From assembly GCF_000619905.2 (NCBI RefSeq), contig NZ_CP012371.1, positions 558,001 to 622,000 of the forward strand: a DNA stretch of 64,000 bases, read 5' to 3'. This document shows, piece after piece, positions 7,407 through 59,239 of this stretch (the stretch's first letter is position 1; every line of letters starts with the position of its first letter). The stretch is from Nitrosospira briensis C-128. Lineage in GTDB: Bacteria; Pseudomonadota; Gammaproteobacteria; Burkholderiales; Nitrosomonadaceae. The position numbers and the translations under genes are program-made. Under the pieces are notes generated by a model. It searched no databases. It was not told the origin of the DNA and saw only the letters and a program-made list of their open reading frames with translations.

Positions 7407-7574
7407 CTGGCAGCCTGTCGGACTTAAAGGAAATCGCTGCAAAAGCGTCTGGCTGGTTCATATTTCGCTGCTTTTTCGAGCAATAGAATAACTATTGGCC
7501 CCTCAAAATCCGCAAAATCTGCCCTCACCCAGTCACTTTTTCACTGCGATCCTTCAAGTCCGACAGGCTGCTAG
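7407..7574 (+). repeat. Family A inverted-repeat element, copy 1
   Basis: A 168-bp element with imperfect 19-bp terminal inverted repeats (left CTGGCAGCCTGTCGGACTT, right its complement ending GGCTGCTAG). Internal sequence is shared with four other copies (14741, 26780, 54162, 59072). It has no coding capacity and looks like a MITE or large REP-type repeat. Its right end overlaps the stop codon of the CBS-domain gene. The rest of the 7276-7570 gap holds the hsp20 upstream region. Confidence 0.85.
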
Positions 7575-8020
7575 CGTCGCGTCCTCGTTTCCTTTTGCCG
7601 CTGATAATTTACCAGCTTGGCAATTGCAAGCAATTCTTCCGATAGCAGTTCCAATAAGTCATCCAGTGTCAGTATGCCTACTAGTGCGCCGTTTTCATCC
7701 ACGACCGGCAAACGCCTTACAGTTTTACTGCGCATGTATTGAATCGCATCGAAGATCGCCACGTCTTCTTTTACGGTGGCCAACTCTTGCGCGATGATAT
7801 CGCCTACGGTGATAACCGCCTGATCGAGTTCAGTCGCCATGATCTCTACAACCAGATCCCGATCGGTGACAATCCCGACTGGAACACGGACGCCATCACG
7901 CTCTTCCACAATGATCACATCACCGACGTGGTGATAGCGCATGAGCTTGGCTGCCTCCAGAATGGTTTCATCTCGTCGCAAAACAATAACATCACGGTTG
8001 CAAATTTCGCCGACAGGCAT
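7571..8020 (-). CDS. CBS-domain protein
   Basis: A 149-residue protein made of two tandem CBS domains (about residues 7-62 and 72-130) with typical VPVGIVTDRDLV and LVGILTLDDLLELL strands. Such stand-alone CBS pairs bind adenosine ligands such as AMP, ATP or SAM and regulate partner proteins; the partner here is unknown. GGAGAG lies four bases before the ATG. The final residues are highly charged (KETRTRR) and the TAG stop lies inside the end of a family A repeat, so the repeat may have replaced the original end of the gene. It sits among Hsp20 and other stress-type genes. Confidence 0.9.
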   Translation of the reverse strand: MPVGEICNRDVIVLRRDETILEAAKLMRYHHVGDVIIVEERDGVRVPVGIVTDRDLVVEIMATELDQAVITVGDIIAQELATVKEDVAIFDAIQYMRSKTVRRLPVVDENGALVGILTLDDLLELLSEELLAIAKLVNYQRQKETRTRR

Positions 8021-8132
8021 AATGCTCTCCGCTTGAGTTACATATCGATATGAAGCGTTTGACCGCAGGGATGAAACCGCGCCATGGATGGTGCAGCCGG
8101 CAGTAAGTCAGGCCCTATTCAATCGTTGATTT

Positions 8133-8636
8133 CTATCGCGTCCAACTCACACGCAACAGATATTCATCTGGGTTATAGTGAAATTCCAGTTCGCCCTGGT
8201 AGGCATTATGTATGGCTTCGCCAATACCTCGTGCCAGATGGATATCAGTGGTTGTAATCAGCGTCACGCCATTCTTTTCTTCGATTTCCATGATACGTTC
8301 AAGCGGATGTTCGGTTCGCTCATGTTTTTCCACGTTATGTGCGAGATGCAGGATTTCCTCGCGATGAGCGAGAAAAAACTCCCCCTGCAAAGTCACAAAA
8401 CCGGCGGGAAAATGATCATGAATGCGATGGCATGCGGGACAAGGTTCCTGATGTGCATCGGCGGGAGCCTGGAGCCACTGCCAGCGTCCTTCATGGAATA
8501 CCGCGCCGCATTGTGGACAAACGGTCGGCTCAGACAGCTTATGTCTTGCCTTATAGGCATCGTGCACGCGCTCCTCAAACATGCTGTCACGACGAGAAAT
8601 CAGGCGAAAGCCAGGAGACGTAGTATGAGTGCCCAT
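8133..8636 (-). CDS. BCAM0308 family zinc-ribbon protein
   Basis: A 167-residue protein of the uncharacterised BCAM0308 type, often found beside stress genes. Two CxxC pairs (CPQC 40-43, CPAC 66-69) form a likely zinc ribbon; the C-terminal half (about 115-167) has an alpha/beta section ending in GEAIHNAYQGELEFHYNPDE, reminiscent of an NMD3/dsRBD-like fold. GGAG lies seven bases before the ATG, confirming the start. It is 112 bases upstream of the CBS gene on the same strand. Biochemical role unknown; a translation- or ribosome-linked job is only a guess. Confidence 0.82.
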   Translation of the reverse strand: MGTHTTSPGFRLISRRDSMFEERVHDAYKARHKLSEPTVCPQCGAVFHEGRWQWLQAPADAHQEPCPACHRIHDHFPAGFVTLQGEFFLAHREEILHLAHNVEKHERTEHPLERIMEIEEKNGVTLITTTDIHLARGIGEAIHNAYQGELEFHYNPDEYLLRVSWTR

Positions 8637-9008
8637 GGAAAGACTCCTATATGTGAATCACATCTGCTCATATGTCAGATGAGAATTCGAGACGACATCT
8701 TATGCGATAGCGTTGCCACCACCACAAGCAGGCCGGACCGGTCATTGACGTAGTAGTGCGTGTAAGGGGCGTGTGCTCCCATCGTGCGGTCGAGGACGCC
8801 TTCCATTCTTCCATTTGATAAGGCTGCGTCGATTCCGCTAAAGCAACAAGCGCTTCAACGCCCTGCCAGCCTCGTGCTTTACAGAAGCGAGGTGTGGCCT
8901 GGCCGAATGCTTCTGAATCTATAGCTCAACCCCTGCGAACGTTGCCCATTCTTTTCGACAGAATGGGCAACAGCCACGCCGGCGAGATCGACTCGAGGGA
9001 TTAATATG
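8637..9008. other. Intergenic stretch with a hairpin
   Basis: No gene is supported. A strong inverted repeat at 8941-8971 (GTTGCCCATTCT, short loop, AGAATGGGCAAC) lies 38 bases past the stop of the Hsp20 gene at 9009. It may stabilise the hsp20 mRNA end or end transcription, but it is not followed by a run of T on the gene's strand. Confidence 0.5.
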
Positions 9009-9455
9009 CTATTTGACCTCGATCCGTCTGGAGGTTTTACCCTCTTTCTTCGGTAGCGTCAGTTCCAGCGTGCCATTTTCATACTTGGCCTCGGCTTTGG
9101 TCTCATCCACATCGCTCCCCAAAGTAAAGCTCCTGTAGCTCGATCCCTGGTGGCATTCGCGACAAATGACTCTTTCGCCCTCTTTTTCCTCTTTTTCCTG
9201 CTTGGTTTCACAGCTGATGGAAACTCTATTGCCCTCTACCTGCACCTTGACATCTTCTTTCTTTACTCCTGGGATATCTGCACGCACGGTATAGGCCGTG
9301 TCATTTTCCTTTAAATCGATTTTGATCGTAGGGGCGGTTTCCGAGTCCATGGAAAATGGTTGCATTCCAAAACCCTTGAACCAGTCATCAACGTTGTAAA
9401 ACGGGTCGAAACGGGCGATATCACCGAACGGGGAACGACGAGCAATGTTTGCCAT
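9009..9455 (-). CDS. Hsp20/alpha-crystallin family small heat-shock protein
   Basis: A 148-residue small heat-shock protein of the bacterial HSP18/IbpA-like class. The N-terminal arm (MANIARRSPFGDIARFDPF) leads into an alpha-crystallin domain from about residue 43, with YTVRADIPGVKKEDVKVQVE, the SSYRSFTLGSDVD strand and AKYENGTLELTLPKK near the end. It differs clearly from the other Hsp20 in this window, so the two are separate paralogs rather than a recent duplication. Unusually, a CRECH motif (residues 98-102) places two cysteines inside the domain. AAGGAA lies about 10 bases before the ATG. It is probably heat-inducible, but no clear sigma-32 promoter was identified. Confidence 0.9.
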   Translation of the reverse strand: MANIARRSPFGDIARFDPFYNVDDWFKGFGMQPFSMDSETAPTIKIDLKENDTAYTVRADIPGVKKEDVKVQVEGNRVSISCETKQEKEEKEGERVICRECHQGSSYRSFTLGSDVDETKAEAKYENGTLELTLPKKEGKTSRRIEVK

Positions 9456-9553
9456 GATGTTTTTTCCTTTGAAATATAAAAATTTATCGTACTATTACTG
9501 CTACCTCTCGGATGATCACGTAAACGGCTAAGCTATCAGAATGTTTTCAGTGG

Positions 9554-9853
9554 TTAAAAATCCTTTTCGGTATATAGCACCTCACCTGTTTCGGCGTCAG
9601 CCTCCAACCAGTCTTGTGCTTCGTCATAAACGTAACCATCAGGTTCATGTCCCTCCACTCTGTAATAAGCGGCGGTGGAAATCACGTGATGATTTTTTCT
9701 TTGCTCGCGCTCGGCCGATTCAGGATCTATTGCCATTGACTCCCTTGGCGTCGATTTTTCGGATTGCTCAACAGCATTGCCTGTAAGGTTGCTGGTGGCT
9801 GTCCTGATTTCATTAGTTACCACACCCGGTTTGCTGGATGGTCTGCCTGACAA
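9554..9853 (-). CDS. DUF2934 domain protein
   Basis: A short protein (99 residues from the chosen start) whose C-terminal part, ISTAAYYRVEGHEPDG followed by EAQDWLEADAETG, matches the DUF2934 pattern of an A-x-x-R-a-x-x-x-G segment and a D-W-L-x-A-E box. The family is of unknown function and is often seen beside stress genes. The N-terminal half is polar and probably disordered. The frame is open back to a TTG at 9907, but a TTG at 9853 is preceded by AAGGGG at a good distance, so I prefer it; there is no in-frame ATG early in the gene. The start is uncertain. Confidence 0.7.
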   Translation of the reverse strand: MSGRPSSKPGVVTNEIRTATSNLTGNAVEQSEKSTPRESMAIDPESAEREQRKNHHVISTAAYYRVEGHEPDGYVYDEAQDWLEADAETGEVLYTEKDF

Positions 9854-10038
9854 GATACACCCCTTTAAAAAGTGATCGATCGGGCTATGCGAGTGGGTGT
9901 CACCCAATTAATCACATCGCCCTGCCGAACGATAAGAATGAAGATCAAATAACATTCAATTTTTAACACCTCGTTATGCCTGCCTCTGTGCGCTGCCTAA
10001 CATTGGGCCACAGAAAAGTTTACAGAATAAACCGGCTA

Positions 10039-10812
10039 CTATTTGGCTTCGCAGATTCCGGGACAATCCGCACCGCCGCGTTTCGGATCGCAATCGTCAG
10101 CGGAGTTATCTACGCAGGTTTTGCCACTAGGGCATGGAATCCCGGCAATTCCACCGCAAGCTTGTGGTTCTGATTTTTTGCATTCCCCTTCCCGCTCAAC
10201 GGATACGCCTGCGGCCGACGCCGTGCATGCATTCGGATAAGTTTTACCATCGCAACCACAAACAGGCTTGAAGATTTGCGGACAAATGGTGGGCTTGGTC
10301 TTGCATGTGCCTTGTGCATCCGCCACCTTGCATTGACCCGTTCCAAAATCACAAAACTGTTTTGCGTCAGGACAGGCTGTTCCCGCAATACCACCGCAGA
10401 CTGCGGACGCAACGACATCAATCGGCTTGCATTGATCCGTGAGCTCTACATTGAGGAAGGTTCCCGCCTTGGGATGAATGGCGCGCAACTGCTTGACAAA
10501 AGCGTTGAACTGCTTTGGCGTTGCGCTAAAACCTGCTTCCGCGCAGGCGTTCAAGCCGCCTTCGATCGGAATCGGGCCGCCTGTTCTGGGGCTATAGACA
10601 GCGAAAGTATCTACGGTATCGGCAATGATCGCTTTTCCGACCAGCTTGCGGACCGATTTCAATGCGGCGTTATCCAGCGCTCCTCCAGAACTGCCGAGAG
10701 AGATATTCACGGCACGGTTTGCAGCCTCCGCACGGTCACCGTCATTCTGGGCAATGGCGGGCAGGCTAAGCAAGGCAGCTCCGATCAGTAAAACACAAGG
10801 TAATTTCTTCAT
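10039..10812 (-). CDS. Secreted cysteine-rich protein with a Kazal-type domain
   Basis: A 257-residue exported protein: signal peptide at 1-21 (cleavage after AIA), a mixed alpha/beta N-terminal region (about 25-130), then three cysteine-rich blocks. The central block (residues 170-211) is a Kazal-type serine-protease-inhibitor domain, recognisable from PVCGCDGKTYPNAC and its six-cysteine spacing. It is flanked by two related blocks that each begin CGGIAG (about 139-161 and 219-254). GGGAGG lies just before the ATG. It would act in the periplasm or outside the cell, perhaps against proteases of predators or competitors; that is inference. The N-terminal region is not recognised. Confidence 0.8.
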   Translation of the reverse strand: MKKLPCVLLIGAALLSLPAIAQNDGDRAEAANRAVNISLGSSGGALDNAALKSVRKLVGKAIIADTVDTFAVYSPRTGGPIPIEGGLNACAEAGFSATPKQFNAFVKQLRAIHPKAGTFLNVELTDQCKPIDVVASAVCGGIAGTACPDAKQFCDFGTGQCKVADAQGTCKTKPTICPQIFKPVCGCDGKTYPNACTASAAGVSVEREGECKKSEPQACGGIAGIPCPSGKTCVDNSADDCDPKRGGADCPGICEAK

Positions 10813-10943
10813 TTTTTCCTCCCATCGATAGTTAATTAAATCACATCCATTCGCCCTTTTTGTAAGCTACCGGTCTGGAAACGAGCGGGTCAATGGCATG
10901 ATATTTTTTTTGGATCCGGGCAGCCTGGAACCCGGATCAAGTG

Positions 10944-13900
10944 CTAAACAGTTTCATCGCACCGCCGAATGCAGTTCCGCCGACGGCGAGCCACGACGCC
11001 CATCAGGCCTAGTCCCGCAAGCAGCATCAGGTATTGCTCAGGCTCGGGTACCACTGCCACGGTGACGTCGTGGTCGTGGTAGAACACCTGGAAGGTATTG
11101 GGGCTGAACCCGTGCATACTGACGGATGAGAAAGTCGAATTTGCCAGACGGTCATCGAAAGTCGCCACTACGAAGCTGTCACCAGCCACAGGCGCGTAGC
11201 CGAGGTTCCATAAAGCAAGGTCGCCGCCCAATGTTACGTCGCCGGTAACCGTCAGTTGGTCAAAATTATGCAGGCCAGCTAGTTCAAAGTTAACTACGCC
11301 GTTCGCTGCCTGATGCAGGTTACCATCGATGGTAAGATGGCCAATGGCGTCTCCGGGATTGATCATGCCGCTGTTGACCAGTTCATTGTTGGCCGGTGTT
11401 TGAATGGTACCGTTGCCCTGTAGGGTGCCGGTGTTACCAAAACAATTGGCACCGCTGCAAGAGGACTGGAATACTCCACCAGCGCCAACATTCACCGTAC
11501 CGGCGTTGGTAAATGCGTGTGCGACATTGAACACTCCAGCATTGACATTGACCGTGCCGGTGTTGTTGAAGGCAATGCCTACATCGGTCAACGTGTTGTT
11601 CTGCTTGTTGTAGGTGCCGCTGTTGTTGAAGGTGCCGCTGCCGGTCATCCGGTCGGAAAAGGCATTGGTATCGGTGAAGGTGCCGGTGTTGTTGAAGGTG
11701 CCATTGCTGAAGAAGTTATCGTTCCGGTTGGCGCCGGTGTTGCCGCTCCAGGTGGTGTTGCCGGCATTCACTATGCGTCCGCCTGAAATGGTCCTGCCGA
11801 GATCACCGCTCATCGCCAGCGTGCTGTTGAAGGTGGTGGTGGCCGCACCGGCAATGGACCCGCCAGTCCAGTCGGCGGCAGCGCCAATCGGCGTGCTCGT
11901 GCCCGCCAGCGTACCGCCGGAAAGCAGAAGGTGCGCGGTATGGCTGCCGCCGTTGAGGTTGACTGTGCCCCCGCTTATCTGAAGAGTGCCCGCCCCGCTG
12001 GTGGTCGCCGCGTTCAGGTTATGCGTGCCAAAGTTGAAATCCAGGGTAGCGCCGCTGGCCATGGCAAAGCTGCCGCTGTGGGTGCCGTTCGCTTCCAGGC
12101 GCAGGGTTCCGGCATTGACATTGACCGTGCCGGTGTTGTTGAAGGCAATGCCTACATCGGTCAACGTGTTGTTCTGCTTGTTGTAGGTGCCGCTGTTGTT
12201 GAAGGTGCCGCTGCCGGTCATCCGGTCGGAAAAGGCATTGGTATCGGTGAAGGTGCCGGTATTGTTGAAGGTGCCATTGCTGAAGAAGTTATCGTTCCGG
12301 TTGGCGCCGGTGTTGCCGCTCCAGGTGGTGTTGCCGGCATTCACTATGCGTCCGCCTGAAATGGTCCTGCCGAGATCACCGCTCATCGCCAGCGTGCTGT
12401 TGAAGGTGGTGGTGGCCGCACCGGCAATGGACCCGCCAGTCCAGTCGGCGGCAGCGCCAATCGGCGTGCTCGTGCCCGCCAGCGTACCGCCGGAAAGCAG
12501 AAGGTGCGCGGTATGGCTGCCGCCGTTGAGGTTGACTGTGCCCCCGCTTATCTGAAGAGTGCCCGCCCCGCTGGTGGCTGCTGCGTTCAGGTTATGCGTG
12601 CCAAAGTTGAAATCCAGGGTAGCGCCGCTGGCCATGGCAAAGCTGCCGCTATGGGTGCCGTTCGCTTCCAGGCGTAGGGTTCCGGCATTGACATTGACCG
12701 TGCCGGTGTTGTTGAAGGCGATACCTACGTCGGTCAGCGTGTTGTTCTGCTTGTTGTAGGTGCCGCTGTTGTTGAAGGTGCCGCTGCCGGTCATCCGGTC
12801 GGAAAAGGCATTGGTATCGGTGAAGGTGCCGGTATTGTTGAAGGTGCCATTGCTGAAGAAGTTATCGTTCCGGTTGGCGCCGGTGTTGCCGCTCCAGGTG
12901 GTGTTGCCGGCATTCACTATGCGTCCGCCTGAAATGGTCCTGCCGAGATCACCGCTCATCGCCAGCGTGCTGTTGAAGGTGGTGGTGGCCGCACCGGCAA
13001 TGGCCCCGCCAGTCCAGTCGGCGGCAGCGCCAATCGGCGTGCTCGTGCCCGACAGCGTACCGCCGGAAAGCAGAAGGTGCGCGGTATGGCTGCCGCCGTT
13101 GAGGTTGACTGTGCCCCCGCTTATCTGAAGAGTGCCCGCCCCGCTGGTGGCTGCTGCGTTCAGGTTATGCGTGCCAAAGTTGAAATCCAGGGTAGCGCCG
13201 CTGGCCATGGCAAAGCTGCCGCTATGGGTGCCGTTCGCTTCCAGGCGTAGGGTTCCGGCATTGACATTGACCGTGCCGGTGTTGTTGAAGGCAATGCCTA
13301 CGTCGGTCAGCGTGTTGTTCTGCTTGTTGTAGGTGCCGCTGTTGTTGAAGGTGCCGCTGCCGGTCATCCGGTCGGAAAAGGCATTGGTATCGGTGAAGGT
13401 GCCGGTATTGTTGAAGGTGCCATTGCTGAAGAAGTTATCGTTCCGGTTGGCGCCGGTGTTGCCGCTCCAGGTGGTGTTGCCGGCATTCACTATGCGTCCG
13501 CCTGAAATGGTCCTGCCGAGATCACCGCTCATCGCCAGCGTGCTGTTGAAGGTGGTGGTGGCCGCGCCGGCAATGGCCCCGCCAGTCCAGTCGGCAGCGG
13601 CGCCAATCGGCGTGCTCGTGCCCGACAGCGTACCGCCGGAAAGCAGAAGGTGCGCGGTATGGCTGCCGCCGTTGAGGTTGACTGTGCCCCCGCTTATCTG
13701 AAGAGTGCCCGCCCCGCTGGTGGCTGCTGCGTTCAGGTTATGCGTGCCAAAGTTGAAATCCAGGGTAGCGCCGCTGGCCATGGCAAAGCTGCCGCTATGG
13801 GTGCCGTTCGCTTCCAGGCGTAGGGTTCCGGCATTGACATTGACCGTGCCGGTGTTGTTGAAGGCAATGCCTACGTCGGTCAGCGTGTTGTTCTGCTTGT

Positions 13901-14486
13901 TGTAGGTGCCGCTGTTGTTGAAGGTGCCGCTGCCGGTCATCCGGTCGGAAAAGGCATTGGTATCGGTGAAGGTGCCGGTATTGTTGAAGGTGCCATTGCT
14001 GAAGAAGTTATCGTTCCGGTTGGCGCCGGTGTTGCCGCTCCAGGTGGTGTTGCCGGCATTCACTATGCGTCCGCCTGAAATGGTCCTGCCGAGATCACCA
14101 CTCATCACCAGCGTGCTGCTGAAGGTGGTGGTGGCCGCACCGGCAATGGACCCGCCAGTCCAGGTACTCAAACCGCTGAGCGTAAGGTTGCCTGTGCCAC
14201 CAAGGATGCCACCGGACAGATCAAGACCGGTTATCCCGGTATTGAAGGATAGAGTTGAATTGCCGCTGCTGATAATCGCTTTGTCGCTGATGCCCGGCAC
14301 ACCGATGGGTGACCAATTCGTATCGACACCCCAATCCCCCGTGCTGCCAAACCATGTGCGATCGACGGCAAGAACTGGCTGGATGAAGCCTGACGCAGCC
14401 AGCGCCGCAATGATCGGCAATGTCCGGAAAAGCCCGTTTGTTAATGACCCATTTTTGCTGATTTGATTTTTCTTCATATTTTTCAT
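10944..14486 (-). CDS. Giant repetitive PEP-CTERM surface protein
   Basis: A 1180-residue exported protein. After a signal peptide (about 1-41) and a leader with a GDWGVDTNWSP motif typical of beta-strand-repeat proteins, residues 109-983 consist of four full and one partial copy of a 191-residue unit rich in Gly, Asn, Thr and Ser (GTFNNTGTF-type strands), predicted to stack as a beta-solenoid. A non-repeated C-terminal domain follows (about 984-1140), then a PEP-CTERM sorting signal: VPEPEQ, a hydrophobic helix and a basic tail (ARRRRN). PEP-CTERM proteins are processed by exosortase and linked to exopolysaccharide or biofilm formation. AGGAG lies six bases before the ATG. The near identity of the units points to recent amplification or gene conversion. 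Confidence 0.85.
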   Translation of the reverse strand: MKNMKKNQISKNGSLTNGLFRTLPIIAALAASGFIQPVLAVDRTWFGSTGDWGVDTNWSPIGVPGISDKAIISSGNSTLSFNTGITGLDLSGGILGGTGNLTLSGLSTWTGGSIAGAATTTFSSTLVMSGDLGRTISGGRIVNAGNTTWSGNTGANRNDNFFSNGTFNNTGTFTDTNAFSDRMTGSGTFNNSGTYNKQNNTLTDVGIAFNNTGTVNVNAGTLRLEANGTHSGSFAMASGATLDFNFGTHNLNAAATSGAGTLQISGGTVNLNGGSHTAHLLLSGGTLSGTSTPIGAAADWTGGAIAGAATTTFNSTLAMSGDLGRTISGGRIVNAGNTTWSGNTGANRNDNFFSNGTFNNTGTFTDTNAFSDRMTGSGTFNNSGTYNKQNNTLTDVGIAFNNTGTVNVNAGTLRLEANGTHSGSFAMASGATLDFNFGTHNLNAAATSGAGTLQISGGTVNLNGGSHTAHLLLSGGTLSGTSTPIGAAADWTGGAIAGAATTTFNSTLAMSGDLGRTISGGRIVNAGNTTWSGNTGANRNDNFFSNGTFNNTGTFTDTNAFSDRMTGSGTFNNSGTYNKQNNTLTDVGIAFNNTGTVNVNAGTLRLEANGTHSGSFAMASGATLDFNFGTHNLNAAATSGAGTLQISGGTVNLNGGSHTAHLLLSGGTLAGTSTPIGAAADWTGGSIAGAATTTFNSTLAMSGDLGRTISGGRIVNAGNTTWSGNTGANRNDNFFSNGTFNNTGTFTDTNAFSDRMTGSGTFNNSGTYNKQNNTLTDVGIAFNNTGTVNVNAGTLRLEANGTHSGSFAMASGATLDFNFGTHNLNAATTSGAGTLQISGGTVNLNGGSHTAHLLLSGGTLAGTSTPIGAAADWTGGSIAGAATTTFNSTLAMSGDLGRTISGGRIVNAGNTTWSGNTGANRNDNFFSNGTFNNTGTFTDTNAFSDRMTGSGTFNNSGTYNKQNNTLTDVGIAFNNTGTVNVNAGVFNVAHAFTNAGTVNVGAGGVFQSSCSGANCFGNTGTLQGNGTIQTPANNELVNSGMINPGDAIGHLTIDGNLHQAANGVVNFELAGLHNFDQLTVTGDVTLGGDLALWNLGYAPVAGDSFVVATFDDRLANSTFSSVSMHGFSPNTFQVFYHDHDVTVAVVPEPEQYLMLLAGLGLMGVVARRRRNCIRRCDETV
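11539..14162 (-). repeat. 573-bp coding tandem repeat (4 full and 1 partial copy)
   Basis: On the minus strand the units are 14162-13590, 13589-13017, 13016-12444 and 12443-11871, plus a partial unit to about 11539. The units differ by only scattered substitutions, mostly synonymous, and the 573-bp period is a multiple of three, so copy number can change without breaking the frame. The opposite strand also stays open in matching 122- and 66-codon frames, which are by-products of the repeat and not genes. Confidence 0.92.
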
Positions 14487-14740: not shown

Positions 14741-14908
14741 CCAGCAGCCTGTCGGACTTGAAGAATCGCAGCGAAAAAGTGACTGGGTGAGAACAGATTT
14801 TGAGGATTTTGAAGGCCAATGGTTATTCTATCGGCCGAAAAAACGGCGAAACATGAACCAGCCGGACGCTTTTGCAGCCGATTTCCTTTAAGTCCGACAG
14901 GCTGCCAG
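14741..14908 (-). repeat. Family A inverted-repeat element, copy 2
   Basis: 168 bp in the opposite orientation to copy 1, with both terminal inverted repeats present (CCAGCAGCCTGTCGGACTT and AAGTCCGACAGGCTGCCAG). It ends four bases before the stop codon of the erythromycin-esterase-like gene. The rest of the 14487-14912 gap, upstream of the giant PEP-CTERM gene, holds no gene I can support. Confidence 0.85.
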
Positions 14909-14912
14909 GCGT

Positions 14913-16274
14913 TTAAAAGCCCGACGGATAGGTCTCGTCCATTTCACCGGGCCTTTTGTGAACAAATGACGGTAACGGCTGCACAGCTTCTGTTTTATCG
15001 ATATGGATCATGAAATCAAATTGCCGTGGCAGGGATGAATAGAAGTAATGGCTTGCGCGCTCGGTTTCAGGCCGGTAAATTACCCCGATGGCCCGCTGCA
15101 GTTTTTTTTCTTTTAACAGGCTGACAGCTTCGTCTTCAGTTCGAAGATCAAGAAGGAAACGTTTCTTTTCGAGTCCCGAAAAAATTGCTTCGTAACTGCC
15201 GGGCAATGGATCGCGAACGGTTTTCGTTTCGGCCGGCCCATCCCAATCCGACGCTGCGGTTACCGTACCGCGGCTGGTCGAAAATCCGATGCGAAGCGCT
15301 CTATCGCCATATTCCTCATTGACCAACTGGCCGATATTGATCTCGCCGCGCTGCGCCATATCCGTCGCTGCGGCGTTGCCCAGATGAGAATTATGTGCCC
15401 ACACGATGATCCGCGGTTCTCGCCCCAACCGGGTTTCCAGATGAGCAGCAAGTTTTTCAAGAGTTTCGAACATATGCCGGTCTCGCAGATTCCAGGTGTT
15501 GGGCCGCCCTCTGAACATCGCACGGTAATATTCCTCGGCATTTTTTACCAATTCGGCATTCTGCCGAGCTGAAAAATACTCGTTCCCGGCAAAAGCGCCG
15601 TCCTGCTCAACATAGAGGCGCGCTTTCCGTTGCAATTGCATGAGTTGAGTCAGAACTTCCTGCTCGCAGGAGTCCCATCTGCCTGAGGCAATGGCATAGC
15701 CATACGCCTGGGGATTACTGATGAACTGGCCAAAGCAGCCATAGCGCGCTCGCGCGGCCGCAGCTTCTTGCGGATCGATCTTGTCCAGATAGGCCAGCAC
15801 TGCCGCCATCGAGGTTGTCATACTGTACAAATCAAGGCCGTAGAACCCTACGGATTCCTTTCGGCCCTTATATTTCTCGCCCCCCTGATTATAATCGCGC
15901 AGCCACGCGACGAAGGCCAGGACCTCGGTATTACGCCACATCCACGTTGGAAATCGTTCAAAATTCGACAGGGCCGCATCCGCCTCCGTATCATCCGATG
16001 TGCCGGATACGAAGCGATTGACTCGGTAAGCATCCGGCCAATCGGCCTCAACCGCGACGGCGTCGAATCCTTCTTCTACAATGAGATGCTGGGTAATTTC
16101 GGCACGCATCCGATAAAATTCCGCCGTGCCGTGAGAGGCTTCCCCAAGCAGAATGAGTTTTTTGTTTTTTGCAGCGTAAATCAGTGGGCGATAATCGTCA
16201 CCGATATCCTGCAGAGATTGCGCATGCCGTTCCAGTGCGTCAATCAAGCTGTGATGAGCATCGAGATCAGGCAT
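14913..16274 (-). CDS. Erythromycin esterase family protein
   Basis: A 453-residue protein of the EreA/EreB superfamily. The catalytic residues of the family are in place: Glu45 and His48 in LLGEASHGTAEF, Glu76 in VAVEADWPD, and a later His in IVWAHNSHLGNA. Family members near stress genes are usually not resistance enzymes; their natural substrate is unknown, so macrolide hydrolysis should not be assumed. The gene follows the phosphoribosyltransferase gene by 9 bases and is the third of a compact operon. A family A repeat abuts its 3' end. Confidence 0.88.
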   Translation of the reverse strand: MPDLDAHHSLIDALERHAQSLQDIGDDYRPLIYAAKNKKLILLGEASHGTAEFYRMRAEITQHLIVEEGFDAVAVEADWPDAYRVNRFVSGTSDDTEADAALSNFERFPTWMWRNTEVLAFVAWLRDYNQGGEKYKGRKESVGFYGLDLYSMTTSMAAVLAYLDKIDPQEAAAARARYGCFGQFISNPQAYGYAIASGRWDSCEQEVLTQLMQLQRKARLYVEQDGAFAGNEYFSARQNAELVKNAEEYYRAMFRGRPNTWNLRDRHMFETLEKLAAHLETRLGREPRIIVWAHNSHLGNAAATDMAQRGEINIGQLVNEEYGDRALRIGFSTSRGTVTAASDWDGPAETKTVRDPLPGSYEAIFSGLEKKRFLLDLRTEDEAVSLLKEKKLQRAIGVIYRPETERASHYFYSSLPRQFDFMIHIDKTEAVQPLPSFVHKRPGEMDETYPSGF

Positions 16275-19556: not shown

Positions 19557-19649
19557 CCTAAACAACCCGGTGATTAACCGCTCATTTGTCAACCAGGCGC
19601 TATAACCGAAAAGAGTTTTTCGTAGCCCGTCCAACTGCCGGATTCAGGA
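19557..19649. repeat. Family B inverted-repeat element, mini form
   Basis: A 93-bp derivative of the family B element (CCTAAACAACCCGG at the left, CCGTCCAACTGCCGGATTC at the right) with almost all of the interior lost. It sits between the 3' ends of the LodA-like gene and the response-regulator gene, whose stop codon begins at its right border. Confidence 0.65.
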
Positions 19650-21011
19650 TCATGCTTGCGCCTGCTTGAAAACAGAAGGATCGAGCTGGTATCGCTGAAG
19701 CAGCTTGTAGAACTCGGTGCGATTTCGCTTGGCCAGGCGTGCTGCCTGTGTCACGTTGCCGCCCGTGATCTTCAGCACGCGTACGAGATAGTCTCTTTCG
19801 AAACTTTTGCGCGCGTCCTCGAAAGAAACAAGCTGTTCCTCTTCCCGGTGCATGGCGTCATATACCGATATCGCCGAGATGAGGGGCGCCGTACTCAGGG
19901 CAACACATCTTTCGATGACATTCATAAGCTGCCGCACATTACCCGGCCAGGACGCGCTAATCAGCATCTCCATGGCTTCGGGAGAGAACCCGTTGATATT
20001 TTTCTGATATTTCCTGGAAAATGTGCTCAGAAAGTAATTTGTCAGTAATGGAATATCCTCGCGTCTCTGCGACAGGGCCGGGATCGTCAACGCCACAACG
20101 TCCAGCCTGTAATAAAGATCTTCTCGAAAGGTACCGGCAGCGATTTCAGCTTTGAGATCACGGTGCGTTGCTGAAATAATGCGAACATTCACGGGCATCG
20201 CCTGCGCGGACCCAACCGGTCGCACCTGTCGCTCCTGCAGAACACGCAATAACTTGACCTGGAGCAAAAGCGGCATATCGCCAATTTCGTCCAGAAGCAG
20301 TGTCCCGCCTTCCGCTAACTGAAACAGCCCCTTGTGGTCCCGGACAGCGCCGGTAAACGCGCCTTTGACGTGACCGAACAATTCCGATTCCAGTAATTGT
20401 TCCGGAATTGCCGCGCAATTTATAGCCACAAACGGATGATCGCGGCGTTTGGATGCATCGTGTATCGCGTGCGCGAATAATTCCTTACCCACGCCGCTTT
20501 CGCCGTAGATCAGTACACTTGCGTCTCCCTCCGCTACCAGTCCCGCTTTTGTAAGAAGGTCCTCCATGACGGCACTTTGCGTAATGATATTCTTGCGCCA
20601 CGCTGCCTGTGATATCTCCTGCTGCGGCAGGGCGCCGGGAACGAACCTGAGCGCCTGGCTAATGTTGGCCAGCAGGGTTTTGCTGTCAAAAGGTTTGGCC
20701 AGATAGCCGAATACACCCTGCTGAACAGCTGCAACCGCATCGGGAATGGTGCCATGCGCAGTCAGGATGATTACCGGCAACGTCGGTAATGTCCGATGGA
20801 TATGCTCAAATAACGCCATGCCATCCATGCCGCTCATCTGCATATCGCTGATGACCAGTTGCGGTCGTGATACATCCAGATAATTCAGCGCGGCCTCTGC
20901 ACTTTGTACCGCGTCCACCTTGTAACCCACAGCAGTAAGCCGAATAACAAGCAACTCAAGCAGATCCGTATCGTCGTCGACGATGAGGATTTTGGGTTTG
21001 GCATCAAACAT
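19650..21011 (-). CDS. Sigma-54-dependent response regulator, QseF/GlrR-like
   Basis: A 453-residue NtrC-type regulator. The receiver domain (about 1-120) has the phosphoacceptor Asp56 in LVISDMQMS and Lys106 in YLAKPFD. The sigma-54 activator AAA+ domain follows with Walker A GESGVGKE (170-177), the sigma-54 contact loop GAFTGA (217-222) and DEIGD (241-245). The C-terminus is a Fis-type helix-turn-helix (GGNVTQAARLAKRNRTEFYKLLQRY region). It should activate RNA polymerase with sigma-54 when phosphorylated by the kinase encoded upstream. Order kinase, lipoprotein, regulator is that of qseE-qseG-qseF (glrK-yfhG-glrR). Targets cannot be told from this window. Confidence 0.9.
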   Translation of the reverse strand: MFDAKPKILIVDDDTDLLELLVIRLTAVGYKVDAVQSAEAALNYLDVSRPQLVISDMQMSGMDGMALFEHIHRTLPTLPVIILTAHGTIPDAVAAVQQGVFGYLAKPFDSKTLLANISQALRFVPGALPQQEISQAAWRKNIITQSAVMEDLLTKAGLVAEGDASVLIYGESGVGKELFAHAIHDASKRRDHPFVAINCAAIPEQLLESELFGHVKGAFTGAVRDHKGLFQLAEGGTLLLDEIGDMPLLLQVKLLRVLQERQVRPVGSAQAMPVNVRIISATHRDLKAEIAAGTFREDLYYRLDVVALTIPALSQRREDIPLLTNYFLSTFSRKYQKNINGFSPEAMEMLISASWPGNVRQLMNVIERCVALSTAPLISAISVYDAMHREEEQLVSFEDARKSFERDYLVRVLKITGGNVTQAARLAKRNRTEFYKLLQRYQLDPSVFKQAQA

Positions 21012-23841: not shown

Positions 23842-23995
23842 TATCAATTTCCTGTACACACATTCGAACATCATTACATTGTCATTACATTTTACGTTCT
23901 ATCAGCACCAGTTTAAACAGTTATACAATTATTTCAAATAGTGCGCTTGGTTGAACAAGCACTTCACGAACCCCCGCGACCGGAACCATATTGAA

Positions 23996-24381
23996 CCTAA
24001 ATCCGGTTGTTGACCGCTCATTTGATAGATCAATATTATGATTAATAACAATATTTCATATTATTTGACGCTCCCCTTCCGGGGTGAAGCGCTACGGGGC
24101 GAATTGCACAGTTTTTGCGGCACATGGCTGCGTTGCAACTCCTTGGAATGGAACGGCGCCCCGAAGCGTCGCCCGAGGGGCCCCGCGCAGCGGGGATCGG
24201 GCAGCGCAGGAGATGCCGCGATCGCGTTCCACACGCAAGGGGGCGCCTGCATCCCGCTTCGGGGTCGCACCTTCCTGCGGAAGGCACTGCTCCGCCCTGC
24301 GCGGTCGCATTCCGCGTCGTTGCGCCTTGCCTTGCACCTCAAAAACCGTACACTTCACCCCGTCCAACTACCGGATTTAGG
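23996..24381. repeat. Family B inverted-repeat element, long form
   Basis: A 386-bp element beginning CCTAAATCCGGTTGTTG and ending CAACTACCGGATTTAGG. It shares both flanks with the 236-bp copy at 38585-38820, but carries about 150 extra GC-rich bases inserted between GGAACG and ATTCCGCGTC (about 24158-24308). Both strands have open frames across it, but none has a ribosome binding site or protein-like sequence. Together with AT-rich sequence to its left it fills the 23842-24421 gap. Confidence 0.8.
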
Positions 24382-24421
24382 TTGAATCCAATTCCTGTTC
24401 ACTGTATTTTCGGGAAAATCA

Positions 24422-26779: not shown

Positions 26780-26946
26780 CTGGCAGCCTGTCCGACTTAA
26801 AAGAAATCGGCTGCAAAAACCTCTGACTGGTTTCATGTTTCGCCGCTTTTTCGGCCAACGATAACTATTGGCCTTCAAAATCCTCAAAATCCACCCTCAC
26901 CCAGTCACTTTTTCGCTGTGATTCTTCAAGTCCGACAGGCTGCTAG
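26780..26946 (+). repeat. Family A inverted-repeat element, copy 3
   Basis: 167 bp, same orientation as copy 1, between the start of the antiporter gene and the 3' end of the PEP-CTERM metalloprotease gene, whose stop codon begins ten bases beyond it. The left end has one mismatch (CAGCCTGTCCGACTT). The remainder of 26620-26955 shows no gene. Confidence 0.85.
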
Positions 26947-38582: not shown

Positions 38583-38590
38583 AACCTAAA
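38583..38590 (-). promoter_or_regulatory. cysN ribosome binding site formed by a repeat end
   Basis: On the minus strand the sequence before the cysN ATG is TTTAGGTTAA. The TAGG lies four to seven bases upstream of the start codon and belongs to the conserved terminus (CCGGATTTAGG) of the family B repeat. No other ribosome binding site is visible, so cysN translation seems to depend on the repeat. Confidence 0.55.
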
Positions 38591-38820
38591 TCCGGTAGTT
38601 GGACGGGGTGAAGTGTACGGTTTTTGGGGTGCAGGGCAAGACGCAACGACGCGGAATGGTCGTTCCATTCCAAGGAGTTGCAACGCAGCCATGTGCCCCA
38701 AAAACTGTGCAATTCACCCCGTAGCGACGTCACCCGGAAGGTAAGCGTCAAATAATTTAAAATATTGTTATTAATCATGATACTGATCTATTAAATAAGC
38801 GGTCAACTACCGGGTTTAGG
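38585..38820. repeat. Family B inverted-repeat element, short form
   Basis: A 236-bp element beginning CCTAAATCCGGTAGTTG and ending CAACTACCGGGTTTAGG on the plus strand, in opposite orientation to the long copy at 23996. Interior palindromic stretches (GTACGGTTTTTGGGG and CCCCAAAAACTGTGC) let much of it fold on itself. It splits the cysD-cysN pair. The rest of the gap, 38821-38963, shows no gene. Confidence 0.85.
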
Positions 38821-38963
38821 TTTAATACTCTTTTGGAATTCTGGTTTCCGAAATATGCCGGCAATCACGCCGGTGAAAGAGAAGGTCGGGTATTACCGAC
38901 TTTTTACAAGGCTGAATTCTTGAGAAAAGCGGTATCACAACCTCATGAGCGGAAAGATACGCG

Positions 38964-50332: not shown

Positions 50333-50534
50333 GTTTGATGAGAAAGAAAAAGTTTTGAAAAAATGCAATACAGAGGCATGCAGCCATTCGGTCTTCCGGC
50401 ATGGCAGTCGATTCCTGGAGTTTCCTGGAATTTATGCAGTTCTCGTTGAAATGGTGCTGGATGCTTGCTATGGGAGGCAATATTCGCCAGGTCGTGCGCG
50501 AACGTTACAGTACTGTATAACTGATATCCATTAT

Positions 50535-50560
50535 TCTAAATCCGGCAGTTGGCGCTCATT
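50535..50560 (+). repeat. Family B half end (relic)
   Basis: CTAAATCCGGCAGTTGGCGC and the following TCATT match the left end of family B with a few changes, but no matching right end is found nearby. It lies in the 50333-50628 gap between the MBL gene start and the 3' end of the GGDEF-EAL gene; the rest of that gap shows nothing I can name. Confidence 0.5.
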
Positions 50561-54161: not shown

Positions 54162-54319
54162 CTGGCAGCCTGTCGGATGTGAAGAACCGCAGCAAAAAAG
54201 TGACCGGATAAGGGCAGATTTTGAGATTTTGAAGGCTAATAGTTATTCTATTGGCCGAAAAGGCGGCGAAATATAAACCAGCCAGACGCTTTTGCAGCCG
54301 ATTTCCGACAGGCTGCCAG
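54162..54319 (-). repeat. Family A inverted-repeat element, copy 4
   Basis: 158 bp, opposite orientation to copy 1. Both ends are kept (CTGGCAGCCTGTCGGA and TCCGACAGGCTGCCAG), but nine bases are missing next to the right end. It lies between the convergent ends of the holin-like gene and bioD, two bases before the bioD stop codon. Confidence 0.85.
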
Positions 54320-55003: not shown

Positions 55004-55894
55004 TCATGCAAGGCCGAGTTGTCGTCTGAGCTCAGGCGTCACGATGGTTGTCCGCGGCTGGGGTTTCCAGGCATGGCCATAAATCACTTCAAAGGTCGCC
55101 GGTAATTTTCCTTCTTTCCGCAGAGTCTCATACTGGCTTATCGCTTTTTGCCACGCGTCTTTCCCGGTTAAACCCCGCCGCCTTCCCTGGGTGACATTAT
55201 GGGCGCCGATGGCTTTGAGATCGCGCATGACGCCGATCACGTCATCATAAGTCAGCGTAATGTATTCCATATCCATAACGGGCGTAGCGAAACCGTTATG
55301 TACCAGCATGTCGCCGATATCGTGCATGTCCGTGAAGCGATTGACATGACTGTAATCATCGGTATGGCGAAATGCCTGGCGCAACTCTTTCAACGTATCC
55401 GGCCCAAAGGTGCTGAACATGAACAAGCCGCCGGTTTGCAGGACCCGACGCACCTCGGCAAATGTCTGTTTGATGTCGTTGCACCATTGCAGTGCCAAGT
55501 TGGACCACACGAGACCTGCGCACGAATCCGCCAACGGTATCTGCTCCATGTCGCCCACTATATAGCTGGCCCGATGTCCACGCTTGTCTCCCACAGCCCC
55601 CAACAATTGCCGCCACCAGGGTACCGCGGGCCGGGCCTGCAAATGCATTGCCGACGCAATGTCGATCGCCAGCAGACGGGCCGCCGGATAACGCATGAGC
55701 AACTCGCGCGTGCCGTAGCCGGTGCCGCTGCCGGCATCGAGGATGACATCGGGCTTGTATTTAATGTATGCGAGACGCGCCAGCATACGATCGCAGATTT
55801 CACGCTGCAACACCGCCGCCTGGTCGTAATGCGGCGCTGCCCGTCCAAAAGCCTTGCGCATCTGGCGCTTATCGATGTTATGGTCGTAGTTCAC
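55004..55894 (-). CDS. bioC: Malonyl-ACP O-methyltransferase
   Basis: A 296-residue SAM methyltransferase that methylates malonyl-ACP to start pimeloyl synthesis on the fatty acid machinery. Motif I is ILDAGSGTGYGTRELL (about 51-66); the YIVGDMEQIPLAD and LVWSNLALQWCND segments (family WsNlaLQW motif) identify BioC rather than a general methyltransferase. The start codon is GTG, seven bases after the bioH stop. The end lies just before the bioD start. Confidence 0.93.
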   Translation of the reverse strand: MNYDHNIDKRQMRKAFGRAAPHYDQAAVLQREICDRMLARLAYIKYKPDVILDAGSGTGYGTRELLMRYPAARLLAIDIASAMHLQARPAVPWWRQLLGAVGDKRGHRASYIVGDMEQIPLADSCAGLVWSNLALQWCNDIKQTFAEVRRVLQTGGLFMFSTFGPDTLKELRQAFRHTDDYSHVNRFTDMHDIGDMLVHNGFATPVMDMEYITLTYDDVIGVMRDLKAIGAHNVTQGRRRGLTGKDAWQKAISQYETLRKEGKLPATFEVIYGHAWKPQPRTTIVTPELRRQLGLA

Positions 55895-55901
55895 TTGGTT
55901 T

Positions 55902-56708
55902 TCAATGCGTACCGGCTACCGGATAAGCCAGCCGAAGCATGCCGGCTACAAATTGCTCGGGATAAGATAAAAACGGCGCATGGCCGCAACCTGGCAGCAT
56001 GATCAGTTCAGAATTTTGCAACTGCCGGTTCATCCACCTCGCCGCGTCAGGATGTGTGATGACATCATTCTCGCCATGAAAAAGTAAAACCGGCTGCATG
56101 ATATTCCTGATCCTGTCACGCAAATCGCTCGATAACAGAATCTGTAATCCCGCCTCCAACGCAGCGTCATCCGGTTTACCGCGTTCGAACAAGCTTTTGC
56201 GCAACTGCGCCAATGCTGATGCTGTGCCGCTGCCGCCACCGCTGATCTGCAACGTCAGAAATCTTTTCATGGTAACGGAATAGTCCCGCTTCAAATTTTC
56301 TGTGAATAATTGCAAGGTAGCGGCCTCCATCCCCCATTGCCAGTCTTTACGTCTGACAAAGCAAGGTGTGGTCGAAATCAACGCAAGTTTTCTGACACGT
56401 AATGGTGCTCGCAATGCAAGTTCGATGGCTACCTGTCCGCCCAGCGACCATCCGCAAACAATAAAGCTTGCAGGCAAAACTTCCGCCAGCATCTCAGCCA
56501 TGCCTTCAAGCGTAGCACTTTGCGAAGCCGATACACGAGCCGGACTGGATCTCCGGCTGAACCCGTGTCCAGGCAAATCGACCAGATGCAAACGGAAATG
56601 CCGTGCCAGCTGATCGGATACGTCCCGCCACATACCGCTGTGCATGGCCCATCCGTGCAGCAGAACGATATCGGGACCCGACCCGATAGATTCAATGTGA
56701 AGGTTCAT
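55902..56708 (-). CDS. bioH: Pimeloyl-ACP methyl ester carboxylesterase
   Basis: A 268-residue alpha/beta hydrolase that removes the methyl group from pimeloyl-ACP methyl ester, ending the BioC-initiated cycle. The nucleophile is Ser88 in CGWSLGGQ, with Asp in FHGENDVITHP and His in PGCGHAPFLSYPE completing the triad; HGWAMHSGMW and DLPGHGFSR are typical of BioH. It sits between bioF and bioC, an order common in betaproteobacteria. Confidence 0.92.
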   Translation of the reverse strand: MNLHIESIGSGPDIVLLHGWAMHSGMWRDVSDQLARHFRLHLVDLPGHGFSRRSSPARVSASQSATLEGMAEMLAEVLPASFIVCGWSLGGQVAIELALRAPLRVRKLALISTTPCFVRRKDWQWGMEAATLQLFTENLKRDYSVTMKRFLTLQISGGGSGTASALAQLRKSLFERGKPDDAALEAGLQILLSSDLRDRIRNIMQPVLLFHGENDVITHPDAARWMNRQLQNSELIMLPGCGHAPFLSYPEQFVAGMLRLAYPVAGTH

Positions 56709-56763
56709 CGGTTATGGAATCCGCCATTGAACCCAGGGCCATCGGGAATCGTTATTCGGTACT

Positions 56764-57933
56764 TCACGACTCGCTATCCAGTTCTCTTAGCGCTGTCCCC
56801 AACCGTGCAACATCTTCCATGGTGTGCGTAGCGGACAATGAAATCCGCAGCCGGGCCGCGCCTTGCGGAACGGTAGGCGGACGAATTGCCGGCACCAGAA
56901 CTCCTCTGTCGCGTAATGCCTCGCTGATCCGCAGGGCTGTTCCGCTTTCGCCTATGAGCAGGGGCTGGATGGCAGTATTCGACGGCAATGGTTTCCAGCG
57001 CAACGATTGCATTTCCCGTTTGAGCGCTGCGGTGAGTTGCACCAGGTTCCCGCGCCGCCACTCTTCCCGCTCGATCAACTCCAGGCTGGTGAGCAAGGCA
57101 TGGGACAATAACGGGGGAGCCGCGGTAGTATAGATGTAGCTTCGCGCATACTGAACCAGGGTTTCGATAACCTCCGCTTCTGCGGCGACAAAAGCACCGA
57201 ATACGCCTGCCGCCTTGCCGAGAGTCGCCATATAGATAATGCGTGGCGAACGGATATTGAAGTGTGCCGACACTCCCCTCCCCTGCGGACCCAGCACGCC
57301 AAACCCGTGTGCATCGTCAAGCAACAACCAGGCGTTGTATTTTTCGCACAACGCCAACAGACTGGCCACCGGAGCGATATCTCCATCCATGCTGAATACC
57401 GCATCGGTCAGCACAAGCTTAAGTTTTGCCTGAGATGCCGCGAGTCGACGTTCCAGCACAGCCAGATCAAGGTGCGGATAGCGGATAAACTTCGCACGAG
57501 AAAGCAACGCGGCATCGTTGAGCGAAGCATGATTGAGCTTGTCGGCAAATATCGCATCGCCACGTCCCGCCAATGCTGTGATCACCCCTGCATTTGCCAT
57601 ATATCCGGTGGAGAACAGCAATGCCCGGGAAAAGCCCGTGAAGCGCGCCAGCACTTCCTCCAGCGCTTGGTGTGCCGAGAAATGCCCACTGATCAGGTGG
57701 GAAGCACCTGCGCCGACGCCATATTTCCGGGCCCCTTCACAGACCGCTTCAATCAACCGTGGATGATCGGCGAGGCCGAGGTAATCATTGCTGCAAAACG
57801 AGAGATATTCTTGTCCTTCCACGCAGACCTGCGTGTTTTGCGAGCTCTCCAGCGTCAGGCGGCGACGGTACAGCTTCTCCCTCTCCCGGCCGCGTAGTTG
57901 TTCGCGCAGGTGTTCAGCGAGGTCGTTGCGCAT
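56764..57933 (-). CDS. bioF: 8-amino-7-oxononanoate synthase
   Basis: A 389-residue PLP enzyme that condenses pimeloyl-ACP with L-alanine. The PLP lysine is Lys240 in YMATLGKAAGVFGAF; SNDYLGLADHPRL, the HASLNDAALLS segment and DDAHGFGVLGPQGRG are conserved family marks. It follows bioB by 58 bases and precedes bioH by 55 bases on the same strand. Confidence 0.95.
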   Translation of the reverse strand: MRNDLAEHLREQLRGREREKLYRRRLTLESSQNTQVCVEGQEYLSFCSNDYLGLADHPRLIEAVCEGARKYGVGAGASHLISGHFSAHQALEEVLARFTGFSRALLFSTGYMANAGVITALAGRGDAIFADKLNHASLNDAALLSRAKFIRYPHLDLAVLERRLAASQAKLKLVLTDAVFSMDGDIAPVASLLALCEKYNAWLLLDDAHGFGVLGPQGRGVSAHFNIRSPRIIYMATLGKAAGVFGAFVAAEAEVIETLVQYARSYIYTTAAPPLLSHALLTSLELIEREEWRRGNLVQLTAALKREMQSLRWKPLPSNTAIQPLLIGESGTALRISEALRDRGVLVPAIRPPTVPQGAARLRISLSATHTMEDVARLGTALRELDSES

Positions 57934-57991
57934 CTGGATGGCTTCGCAGCTAAGGGTTCGGGGATCTGCCGGTTTTGTGGATTGGGGAACG

Positions 57992-59023
57992 CTATATCGA
58001 GCTCAGTCCCAGTTTGTCAAATAACGCCTTGTCGCGTTCGGCTTCCGGGTTGCCGGTAGTGAGTAATTTGTCGCCATAGAAAATCGAGTTGGCGCCGGCA
58101 AGAAAGCACAGCGCCTGCACCGCATCCGACATCTCCTGTCTACCGGCGGATAGCCTTACCATTGCTTTAGGCATGGTAATACGCGCAGCCGCGATCGTGC
58201 GCACGAATTCCAGGGGATCGAGCGCCACAGTGCCATGGAGAGGCGTACCTTCCACTTGTACCAGGTGATTGATGGGAACGGATTCCGGATAGGGATCGAG
58301 GTTGGCCAGTTGAGCGATCAGACCAGCGCGGGCATGGCGCGATTCACCCATGCCGACGATACCGCCACAGCATACATTTATGCCCGCACCGCGGACTTTC
58401 TGCAAAGTGTCCAGCCTGTCTTCGTAATGACGGGTTGTGATGACTTCCCCATAAAATTCCGGCGCTGTGTCGAGGTTATGGTTATAGTAATCCAGTCCGG
58501 CTTGCCTGAGCTGCTCTGCCTGCCCCGGCTTCAGCATGCCCAGCGTGGCACAGGTTTCAAGCCCCAGCGCTTTGACGGCGCTAACCATTTCCGTCATTTT
58601 CTCGATGTCTCGCTGCTTGGGCCCGCGCCATGCGGCACCCATGCAAAAGCGGGACGCGCCCTGCGCCTTCGCCGCTGCCGCTGTTGCCACCACCTCGTCA
58701 AGACCCAGCATTTCCTGATTCTCGACATCCGTATGGTAACGCGCTGCCTGGGGGCAATAACCACAGTCTTCGGGGCAACCGCCGGTCTTGACCGAAATCA
58801 ATGTCGAGAGTTGCACTGCGTTGGCATCGTGATGCTGGCGGTGCACCAACTGGGCGCGATGAATCAAATCGTTGAAAGGTAAATCCAGCAATGTCTTGAT
58901 CCGGGCAACATCCCATCGCGGCGATTCGACTGCCGTGCCGGCAAGCTTGTCAGCGAATTTGCCAGCAGTGTTATCCGGGCATCGTTCCAGATCGACGGTT
59001 ATGTCGGAAGTAAGCTGGCTCAT
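57992..59023 (-). CDS. bioB: Biotin synthase
   Basis: A 343-residue radical-SAM enzyme that inserts sulfur into dethiobiotin. The radical-SAM cluster motif is CPEDCGYC (Cys83, 87, 90); the 2Fe-2S ligands lie in [18 protein letters not shown] and [13 protein letters not shown]. It is the first gene of the operon bioB-F-H-C-D. bioA, needed for the step between BioF and BioD, is not in this window. The upstream gap to comF contains a family A repeat. Confidence 0.96.
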
Positions 59024-59071
59024 ACCACATCCTTATCACATTATATTTTCGTAAGCGATCGTCCGACTCAC

Positions 59072-59239
59072 TTCGCAACCTGTTGGACTTTAAGGAAATC
59101 GGCTGCAAAAGCGTCTGACCGGTTCATATTTCGCCGCTTTTTCGACCAATAGAATAACAATTGGCCTTCAAAATCCGCAAAATCTGCCCTCGCCCAGTCA
59201 CTTTTTCGCTTCGATTCTTCAAGTCCGACAGGCTGCTAG
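59072..59239 (+). repeat. Family A inverted-repeat element, copy 5
   Basis: 168 bp, same orientation as copy 1, with a degraded left end (GCAACCTGTTGGACTT) and a perfect right end (AAGTCCGACAGGCTGCTAG). It lies in the 59024-59354 divergent spacer between bioB and comF, so it separates two promoter regions; the rest of the spacer shows no gene. Confidence 0.82.

Follow-up and report, generated by a model that had tools for sequence, protein, structure and literature searches.

A 64,000-nucleotide stretch of the Nitrosospira briensis C-128 genome (the window; positions 558001-622000 of the single 3,210,113-bp contig of this 3.21-Mb genome) contains five dispersed copies of a short inverted-repeat element. 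With high confidence, we assign all five to a single miniature inverted-repeat transposable element (MITE) for which IS1182-family DDE transposases acted as mobilisers in trans. It runs from CAGCC to GGCTG over about 160 bp and is bounded at either end by the 15-bp terminal repeat CAGCCTGTCGGACTT. With a length of 150 to 160 bp, no transposase gene, inverted ends and about 50 to 60 dispersed copies, it has the features of a MITE. We class it as an IS1182-type MITE, a known kind of element of which this family is a new member; judged by titles and abstract openings, none of the papers listed shows it, which is not a claim of absence from print. To judge from the shared ends, the mobiliser was very probably a DDE transposase of the IS1182 family. 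Recognising the terminal repeat at both element ends, such an enzyme would have inserted the MITE, roughly 160 bp long, at a CTAG-like tetranucleotide, and this target is found on both sides of the element.

The five copies, lettered a to e along the window, align lengthwise; a, c and e point one way, b and d the other. A search for the 19-bp end CTRGCAGCCTGTCGGACTT that tolerated up to 3 mismatches recovered nine of the ten expected ends (0.02 expected by chance); the tenth, the left end of copy e (59072), is more worn (TTCGCAACCTGTTGGACTT). In copy d, about 9 bp are missing beside the right end. Alignment and end search together bore out the number, positions and both orientations of the copies proposed in an earlier, sequence-only reading of the window. 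The coordinates given there take in a 4-bp target copy on each side, and the element proper measures 150 to 160 bp.

We then determined the size of the family in the N. briensis genome. An element-specific 31-mer, allowing up to 3 mismatches, gave 22 + 25 = 47 matches (control, 0), and the shared 16-mer end, allowing up to 2 mismatches, gave 57 + 58 matches (controls, 0 and 2). A blastn search returned at least 53 matching pieces, an undercount in which 40 of 82 candidates were scored. Among the fetched loci, 47 elements from this genome had both ends and ranged from 57 to 186 bp. The family thus comprises about 50 to 60 copies. The sequence-only reading had extrapolated from the window to hundreds per genome, a figure that does not hold; the opposite case that it had named, a genome with only these five copies, was likewise not what the whole-genome end search returned. 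The window is enriched, with 5 copies against 0.94 to 1.14 expected (Poisson P of 0.003 to 0.006).

To describe the insertion sites, we compared the flanks of all 124 elements that were extracted with both ends. Identical 4-mers stood on the two sides in 63 of the 124, and CTAG stood on both sides in 59. Immediately outside the element, C, T and A were conserved on the left (102, 111 and 97 of 124) and T, A and G on the right (106, 111 and 116 of 124). The innermost G and C belong to the motif used for picking elements, and farther from the element a mild preference for C alone remained (54 and 52 of 124).

Comparison with the sister genome G009 covered copies a, b and c. The site of copy b is empty there: N. 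briensis reads GTGGAAG-CCAG-element-CCAG-GCG and the sister GTTGAAA-TCAG-GCG, so that a plain insertion faces a single TCAG in G009, and a target-site duplication is seen at this one clean empty site. The site of copy a is also empty in G009, with CTAG present once and one base of difference. Copy c occupies the same place in G009, indicating that its insertion is older than the split between the two genomes. When orthologous loci were scanned for the end motif (up to 3 mismatches), copy a was found in N. briensis only (among 22 loci), copy b in N. briensis only (among 20 loci), and copy c in N. briensis and G009 (among 14 of 23 loci); stray single 3-mismatch end matches occurred elsewhere in some of these loci. 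The duplication is most simply read as 4 bp, although a 2-bp TA duplication inside CTAG would look alike. We favour 4 bp because such repeats are reported for IS1182 elements in the consulted parts of two papers (PMC3281130; PMC3852290), the first of which describes 16-bp ends and 4-bp repeats for the IS1182 element ISPse1.

The assignment to IS1182 rests on autonomous elements of about 1.6 kb that lie in CTAG and have identical or near-identical ends; we found them on plasmids, in Sulfuriferula and in other genomes of the genus. In a metagenome-assembled genome of Sulfuriferula multivorans, locus L097 contains a second exact pair of 16-mer ends (16/16 at both ends), 1568 bp apart, around a 460-aa protein. 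This protein scored 365 bits against the IS1182 model NF033551 (cut-off 270) and matched Pfam DDE_Tnp_1 and DUF772. The N. briensis MITE consensus and the L097 insertion sequence (IS) have 17 nt at the left end and 20 nt at the right end in common, in the same polarity. Homologues of the L097 protein at E of 1e-60 or better were found in 3 of 61 genomes (N. briensis and 60 relatives), and all three loci lie in the genus of N. briensis itself. In genome G019, a 486-aa frame (L170) is bounded by ends matching at 14 and 16 of 16 positions with CTAG on both sides; together with its neighbours in frame it scored 336 bits, above the cut-off, and the same genome has 13 matches to the element 31-mer. 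An element in G016 (L171) has both ends at 16/16 and CTAG on both sides and is missing the N-terminal part of its transposase, and G018 holds an IS1182 fragment with one exact end (L172). The autonomous partners that share the ends of the MITE therefore encode IS1182-family transposases.

Similar elements were present on plasmids, where 952 records matched the L097 protein and four were fetched. The annotated ISAzo1 (L266) has CTAG and CAGCGTGTCGGACT on both sides, a Polaromonas plasmid element (L267) has CTAG and CAGCCTGTCGGGCTT on both sides, and a Methylobacter plasmid element (L268) has CTAG and GAGTCTGTCGGAC. The sequence-only reading had stated that no transposase with these ends lies in the window and that the mobilising enzyme was unknown. 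The former statement is uncontradicted, since the ends are about 160 bp apart in each copy, whereas the latter no longer applies given the IS1182 elements of relatives. Two end pairs in Thiobacillus loci lie 763 bp apart (3 mismatches at both ends). At a third Thiobacillus locus, with ends 1481 bp apart (3 and 0 mismatches), the listing of open reading frames (ORFs) showed no recognisable transposase, no family search having been made.

Several observations weigh against this pairing of MITE and enzyme. The flanks of the L097 IS differ, CTAG facing CCAG, and in the fourth plasmid element, an IS1182 element from Simplicispira (L269), a single end could be matched, and that with 3 mismatches. 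The MITE interior gave one 14-nt match and nothing else when 33 group consensuses were compared with ten IS1182 sequences; the MITE is therefore not a simple internal deletion of any IS1182 element examined. Co-occurrence was scarce: a close IS1182 gene (E of 1e-50 or better) was found in only 2 of 23 genomes (22 element carriers and G009), and each of these two showed an end on one side only, with 1 mismatch (the left in L247, the right in L246), so that the pairing of element and enzyme rests on the ends and not on co-occurrence. In 65 elements CTAG is missing from at least one side; of these, 4 had identical flanking 4-mers and 4 had inverse-complementary ones, and with these equal counts they are no proof of duplication. 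In the window, copy b alone of the five has identical flanks.

The N. briensis genome itself has no IS1182 partner: a search with NF033551 gave nothing over the cut-off (best score, 67 bits), while G019 passed. This absence counts against the pairing, although an element moved in the past would not need a partner in its present genome. One N. briensis locus (G000:2507569; L059) has a single IS1182-type end that matches the L171 end exactly over 30 nt, including the sub-terminal bases, and we read this match as the relic of an IS1182 element. The family has apparently been left without an intact matching enzyme in this genome and would now be immobile there. We also considered dating the family by divergence, as the N. 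briensis copies average 93.7% identity to their consensus; in four Nitrosospira and Nitrosovibrio genomes the figure is 97 to 98%, and a fifth genome, which has two copies, gives 86%. The difference was not used, because the copies from the other genomes were chosen by an exact 26-base pattern, which favours little-worn ones.

Two other origins were weighed against the IS1182-type MITE. The family could be a repeat of the repetitive extragenic palindromic (REP) or bacterial interspersed mosaic element (BIME) kind, spread by a RAYT (Y1/HUH) transposase; Y1_Tnp proteins include RAYTs, N. briensis itself gave 11 Y1_Tnp matches, of which 10 exceeded the cut-off, and the element is palindromic, multicopy and often at gene ends. 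We consider this origin extremely unlikely, as none of 10 fetched Y1_Tnp loci (L359-L368, about 1.5 kb of flank each) carries the end (up to 3 mismatches) or the apical hairpin, and as the element is about 160 bp long, has target copies at a clean empty site and bears the ends of a DDE-type IS. Of the two types that the sequence-only reading had left side by side, "MITE- or REP-type", the ends, target copies, dispersed copies and lack of a gene thus support the first, and the Y1_Tnp loci and DDE-type ends speak against the second. Alternatively, the copies could be decayed pieces of a larger known element, as the terminal 17 and 20 bases in common with the L097 IS might suggest. Against it, the interior has a fixed length across genera (63 of the 124 elements extracted with both ends measure 162 bp from G to C) and matches no examined IS1182 beyond the one 14-nt stretch; we therefore regard this origin as very unlikely.

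The whole body of the element pairs with itself and forms an imperfect hairpin. Of the 124 elements, 113 (150 to 206 bp) were aligned, and 96 of standard length from 33 organism groups were used with a strand-neutral pairing of 77 pairs taken from the N. briensis consensus. Compensatory Watson-Crick changes between groups were found at 20 of the 77 pairs (mean 13.8 and maximum 18 in 300 shuffles; at most 10 when the pairing was slid by 1 to 3 columns), amounting to 105 compensatory cells (mean 37 and maximum 47 in the shuffles; no more than 16 with the slid pairing). Because the groups share descent, the shuffle values are not to be taken as a strict probability. Short forms of 47 to 130 bp, making up 17 of 181 elements, keep a shorter hairpin.

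The covariation between lineages could mean that the family has been domesticated as an RNA element, whose hairpin would act in transcripts (processing, stability or termination) and be kept by selection, a reading compatible with a MITE origin. It would also fit the RNA folding, in which one of the two strands was the more stable in 95 of 96 copies. However, the elements show no strand preference relative to genes (pooled 41 versus 30, P of 0.24), the strand-neutral wobble excess is modest (135 versus 55 over groups, 3 versus 2 in the N. briensis consensus, and 81 versus 55 in worn N. briensis copies), copy a, the only copy scanned, has no terminator-like or promoter-like site, the window has no Rfam match at gathering score, and the family is absent by 31-mer from 11 of 23 genomes of the genus, and we think an RNA role improbable. 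A case for strand-specific RNA function built on wobble pairs (128 G.U versus 12 A.C over groups) was rejected, because derivation from one strand favours G.U.

Imperfect palindromes can undergo template-switch correction during replication. Switching between the arms would produce covariation by mutation, without selection, and is again compatible with a MITE origin; we regard it as a serious possibility, while leaning slightly away from it. In L296 and L357, the same mutually complementary base change appears in both ends, as if one arm had been copied, and in the N. briensis copies 9 pairs with both bases changed are still Watson-Crick versus 3 unpaired, where independence predicts 3.4 both-changed pairs. 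The excess is small, however, 3 of the 5 changed pairs recur in two or three copies, for which common descent is possible, and the end type of L357 (GAG for CAG) is also found on the IS1182 elements L246 and L268, so that enzyme specificity could suffice. The covariation may thus stem either from selection on the hairpin or from template-switch correction.

A further possibility is that the hairpin has been kept over many genera because IS1182-type transposases, among them IS1272 with its reported action on stem-loops, recognise the extruded hairpin itself, which would make the element a structure-dependent MITE moved as a cruciform and not by its end sequence alone. This appears unlikely. The proposal that short deletion forms never re-amplify was dropped, as two short forms in N. 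briensis (L287 and L297) have a common junction by eye, as do L088 and L357 from two other genomes, and as L053 and L140 are 94% identical. The full body may thus be dispensable for movement, and short forms with common junctions weigh against structure-dependent movement. Longer forms also exist, in which one of three inserts of about 30 to 42 bp, each with a small palindrome, lies in the same arm. The carriers are L064, L067, L109, L133 and L149 (Nitrotoga), L061, L095, L136 and L162 (Gallionellales and kin), and L097 and L099 (Sulfuriferula and Thiobacillus); blastn with the three inserts placed 42 of 42 matches near an element end in the loci searched.

The IS1182-type MITE is not confined to N. 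briensis. A scan of GTDB genomes with the end and the first interior bases yielded 109 stretches, whose names include Nitrosospira, Nitrosovibrio, Nitrotoga, Gallionella, Sulfuricella, Thiobacillus, Sulfuriferula, Massilia and Methylotenera. Within the genus, 12 of 23 genomes had the 31-mer, with 1 to 47 matches each (47 in N. briensis), and 11 had none; in a sample of the order it was present in 23 of 399 genomes (N. briensis included) and 14 of 158 genera. A FastTree phylogeny of the 96 standard-length copies separated 61 Nitrosospira, Nitrosovibrio and N. briensis copies from 35 others (under midpoint rooting, the two sides had supports of 0.83 and 1.0), with the Massilia copies nested among those of Gallionella and Sulfuricella. 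The family has thus spread mostly within lineages, probably with some exchange. The element had no match in either the plasmid or the phage collection, and although the 17-mer end occurred exactly in 18 viral contigs, in none of them did it run on into the element interior (45 bases or fewer seen; only 17 and 21 in two that stop at contig ends).

To examine placement relative to genes, we used 152 elements flanked on each side by 700 bp or more (101 of the 124 and 51 of 57 from a second fetched set, from which 5 duplicates had been removed and in which 17 of 79 loci had no end pair), taking plain ORFs of at least 100 aa as genes. At 36 of 149 element-facing gene ends (18 of 70 on the left and 18 of 79 on the right), the stop codon was exactly the TAG of the terminal CTAG. 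Convergent sites (35) outnumbered divergent ones (17), and 16 of the 152 elements lay inside a longer reading frame. CTAG is scarce in the window: base composition predicts 248 occurrences, and 18 are present. Fifteen of these lie away from the elements (9 inside ORFs, 4 between ORFs and 2 at a stop codon), too few to serve as a background for firm comparison. CTAG contains a TAG stop, and a good share of the copies lie exactly at gene ends, with the TAG of the target copy as the stop codon. At copy a, CTA at 7571-7573 is the minus-strand TAG stop codon of ORF 7571-8020, which encodes a CBS-domain protein; since the empty site in G009 has CTAG at the same place, this stop codon was probably native and kept. 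A sense-strand bias relative to genes, at 32 versus 18 (P of 0.065), was discarded once the second, separately fetched set gave 9 versus 12.

Table 1. Copies of the IS1182-type MITE in the window, with the 4-mers on either side
Feature	Position	Strand	Composition
MITE copy a	7407..7574	+	CTGG 7407-7410, element 7411-7570 (160 bp), CTAG 7571-7574
MITE copy b	14741..14908	-	CCAG 14741-14744 and CCAG 14905-14908 (identical), element 14745-14904 (160 bp)
MITE copy c	26780..26946	+	CTGG, element 26784-26942 (159 bp), CTAG
MITE copy d	54162..54319	-	CTGG, element 54166-54315 (150 bp), CCAG
MITE copy e	59072..59239	+	TTCG and worn left end CAACCTGTTGGACTT, element 59076-59235 (160 bp), CTAG

Other features of the window were recorded alongside these copies (Table 1). 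The ORF adjoining copy b (14913-16274) has a Pfam Erythromycin esterase match (PF05139, 452 bits). A second MITE-like family with ends AACCTAAATCCGGTAGTTG is represented at 23994-24383 (390 bp) and 38583-38822 (240 bp); single ends of it, both degenerate, also lie at 19632-19650 and 50533-50551. Between 11535 and 14126 lie five tandem 573-bp units, 98 to 99% identical over the 300 bp compared, inside ORF 10944-14486 (minus strand, 1180 aa), the protein of which has a C-terminal PEP-CTERM motif.

The closest parallel comes from Methanosarcina acetivorans, in which, according to the consulted portion of PMC3852290, MITEs of 160 and 169 bp have ISMac2, an IS1182 element, as their assigned partner, 4-bp repeats being given for the shorter one, and new MITEs resemble their partner mainly in the ends. 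Those MITEs are like the present family in size, inverted-repeat ends and IS1182 partner; they differ in belonging to another domain of life and in having 14 and 7 copies in one genome (PMC3852290, same portion), whereas the present family occurs in many betaproteobacterial genera. ISAzo1 of Aromatoleum aromaticum has nearly the same terminal repeat as the MITE (CAGCGTGTCGGACT versus CAGCCTGTCGGACT) with CTAG on both sides, but is autonomous, about 1.55 kb long and transposase-encoding, and showed no similarity to the MITE beyond the end. IS1272 is in the same transposase family as the predicted mobiliser and, in the excerpt consulted of PMC5678879, is proposed to recognise palindromic stem-loop targets and reported to replace the stem-loop without target duplication; the MITE, in contrast, has CTAG-like sequences on both sides and a plain insertion at its clean site.

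REP/RAYT, ERIC and Correia (NEMIS) repeats are likewise short, palindromic and multicopy. The MITE differs from them in having the ends and target of a DDE-type IS1182 element, ERIC and Correia being set apart by description. The outcome is that an unknown mobiliser has been replaced by a named and testable MITE/IS1182 pairing across betaproteobacterial lineages, nitrifiers and iron and sulfur oxidisers among them. With its covarying hairpin, the family could serve as a natural test of the stem-loop preference reported for IS1272, and the rare, TAG-bearing CTAG target would offer a simple reason for element positions exactly at stop codons.

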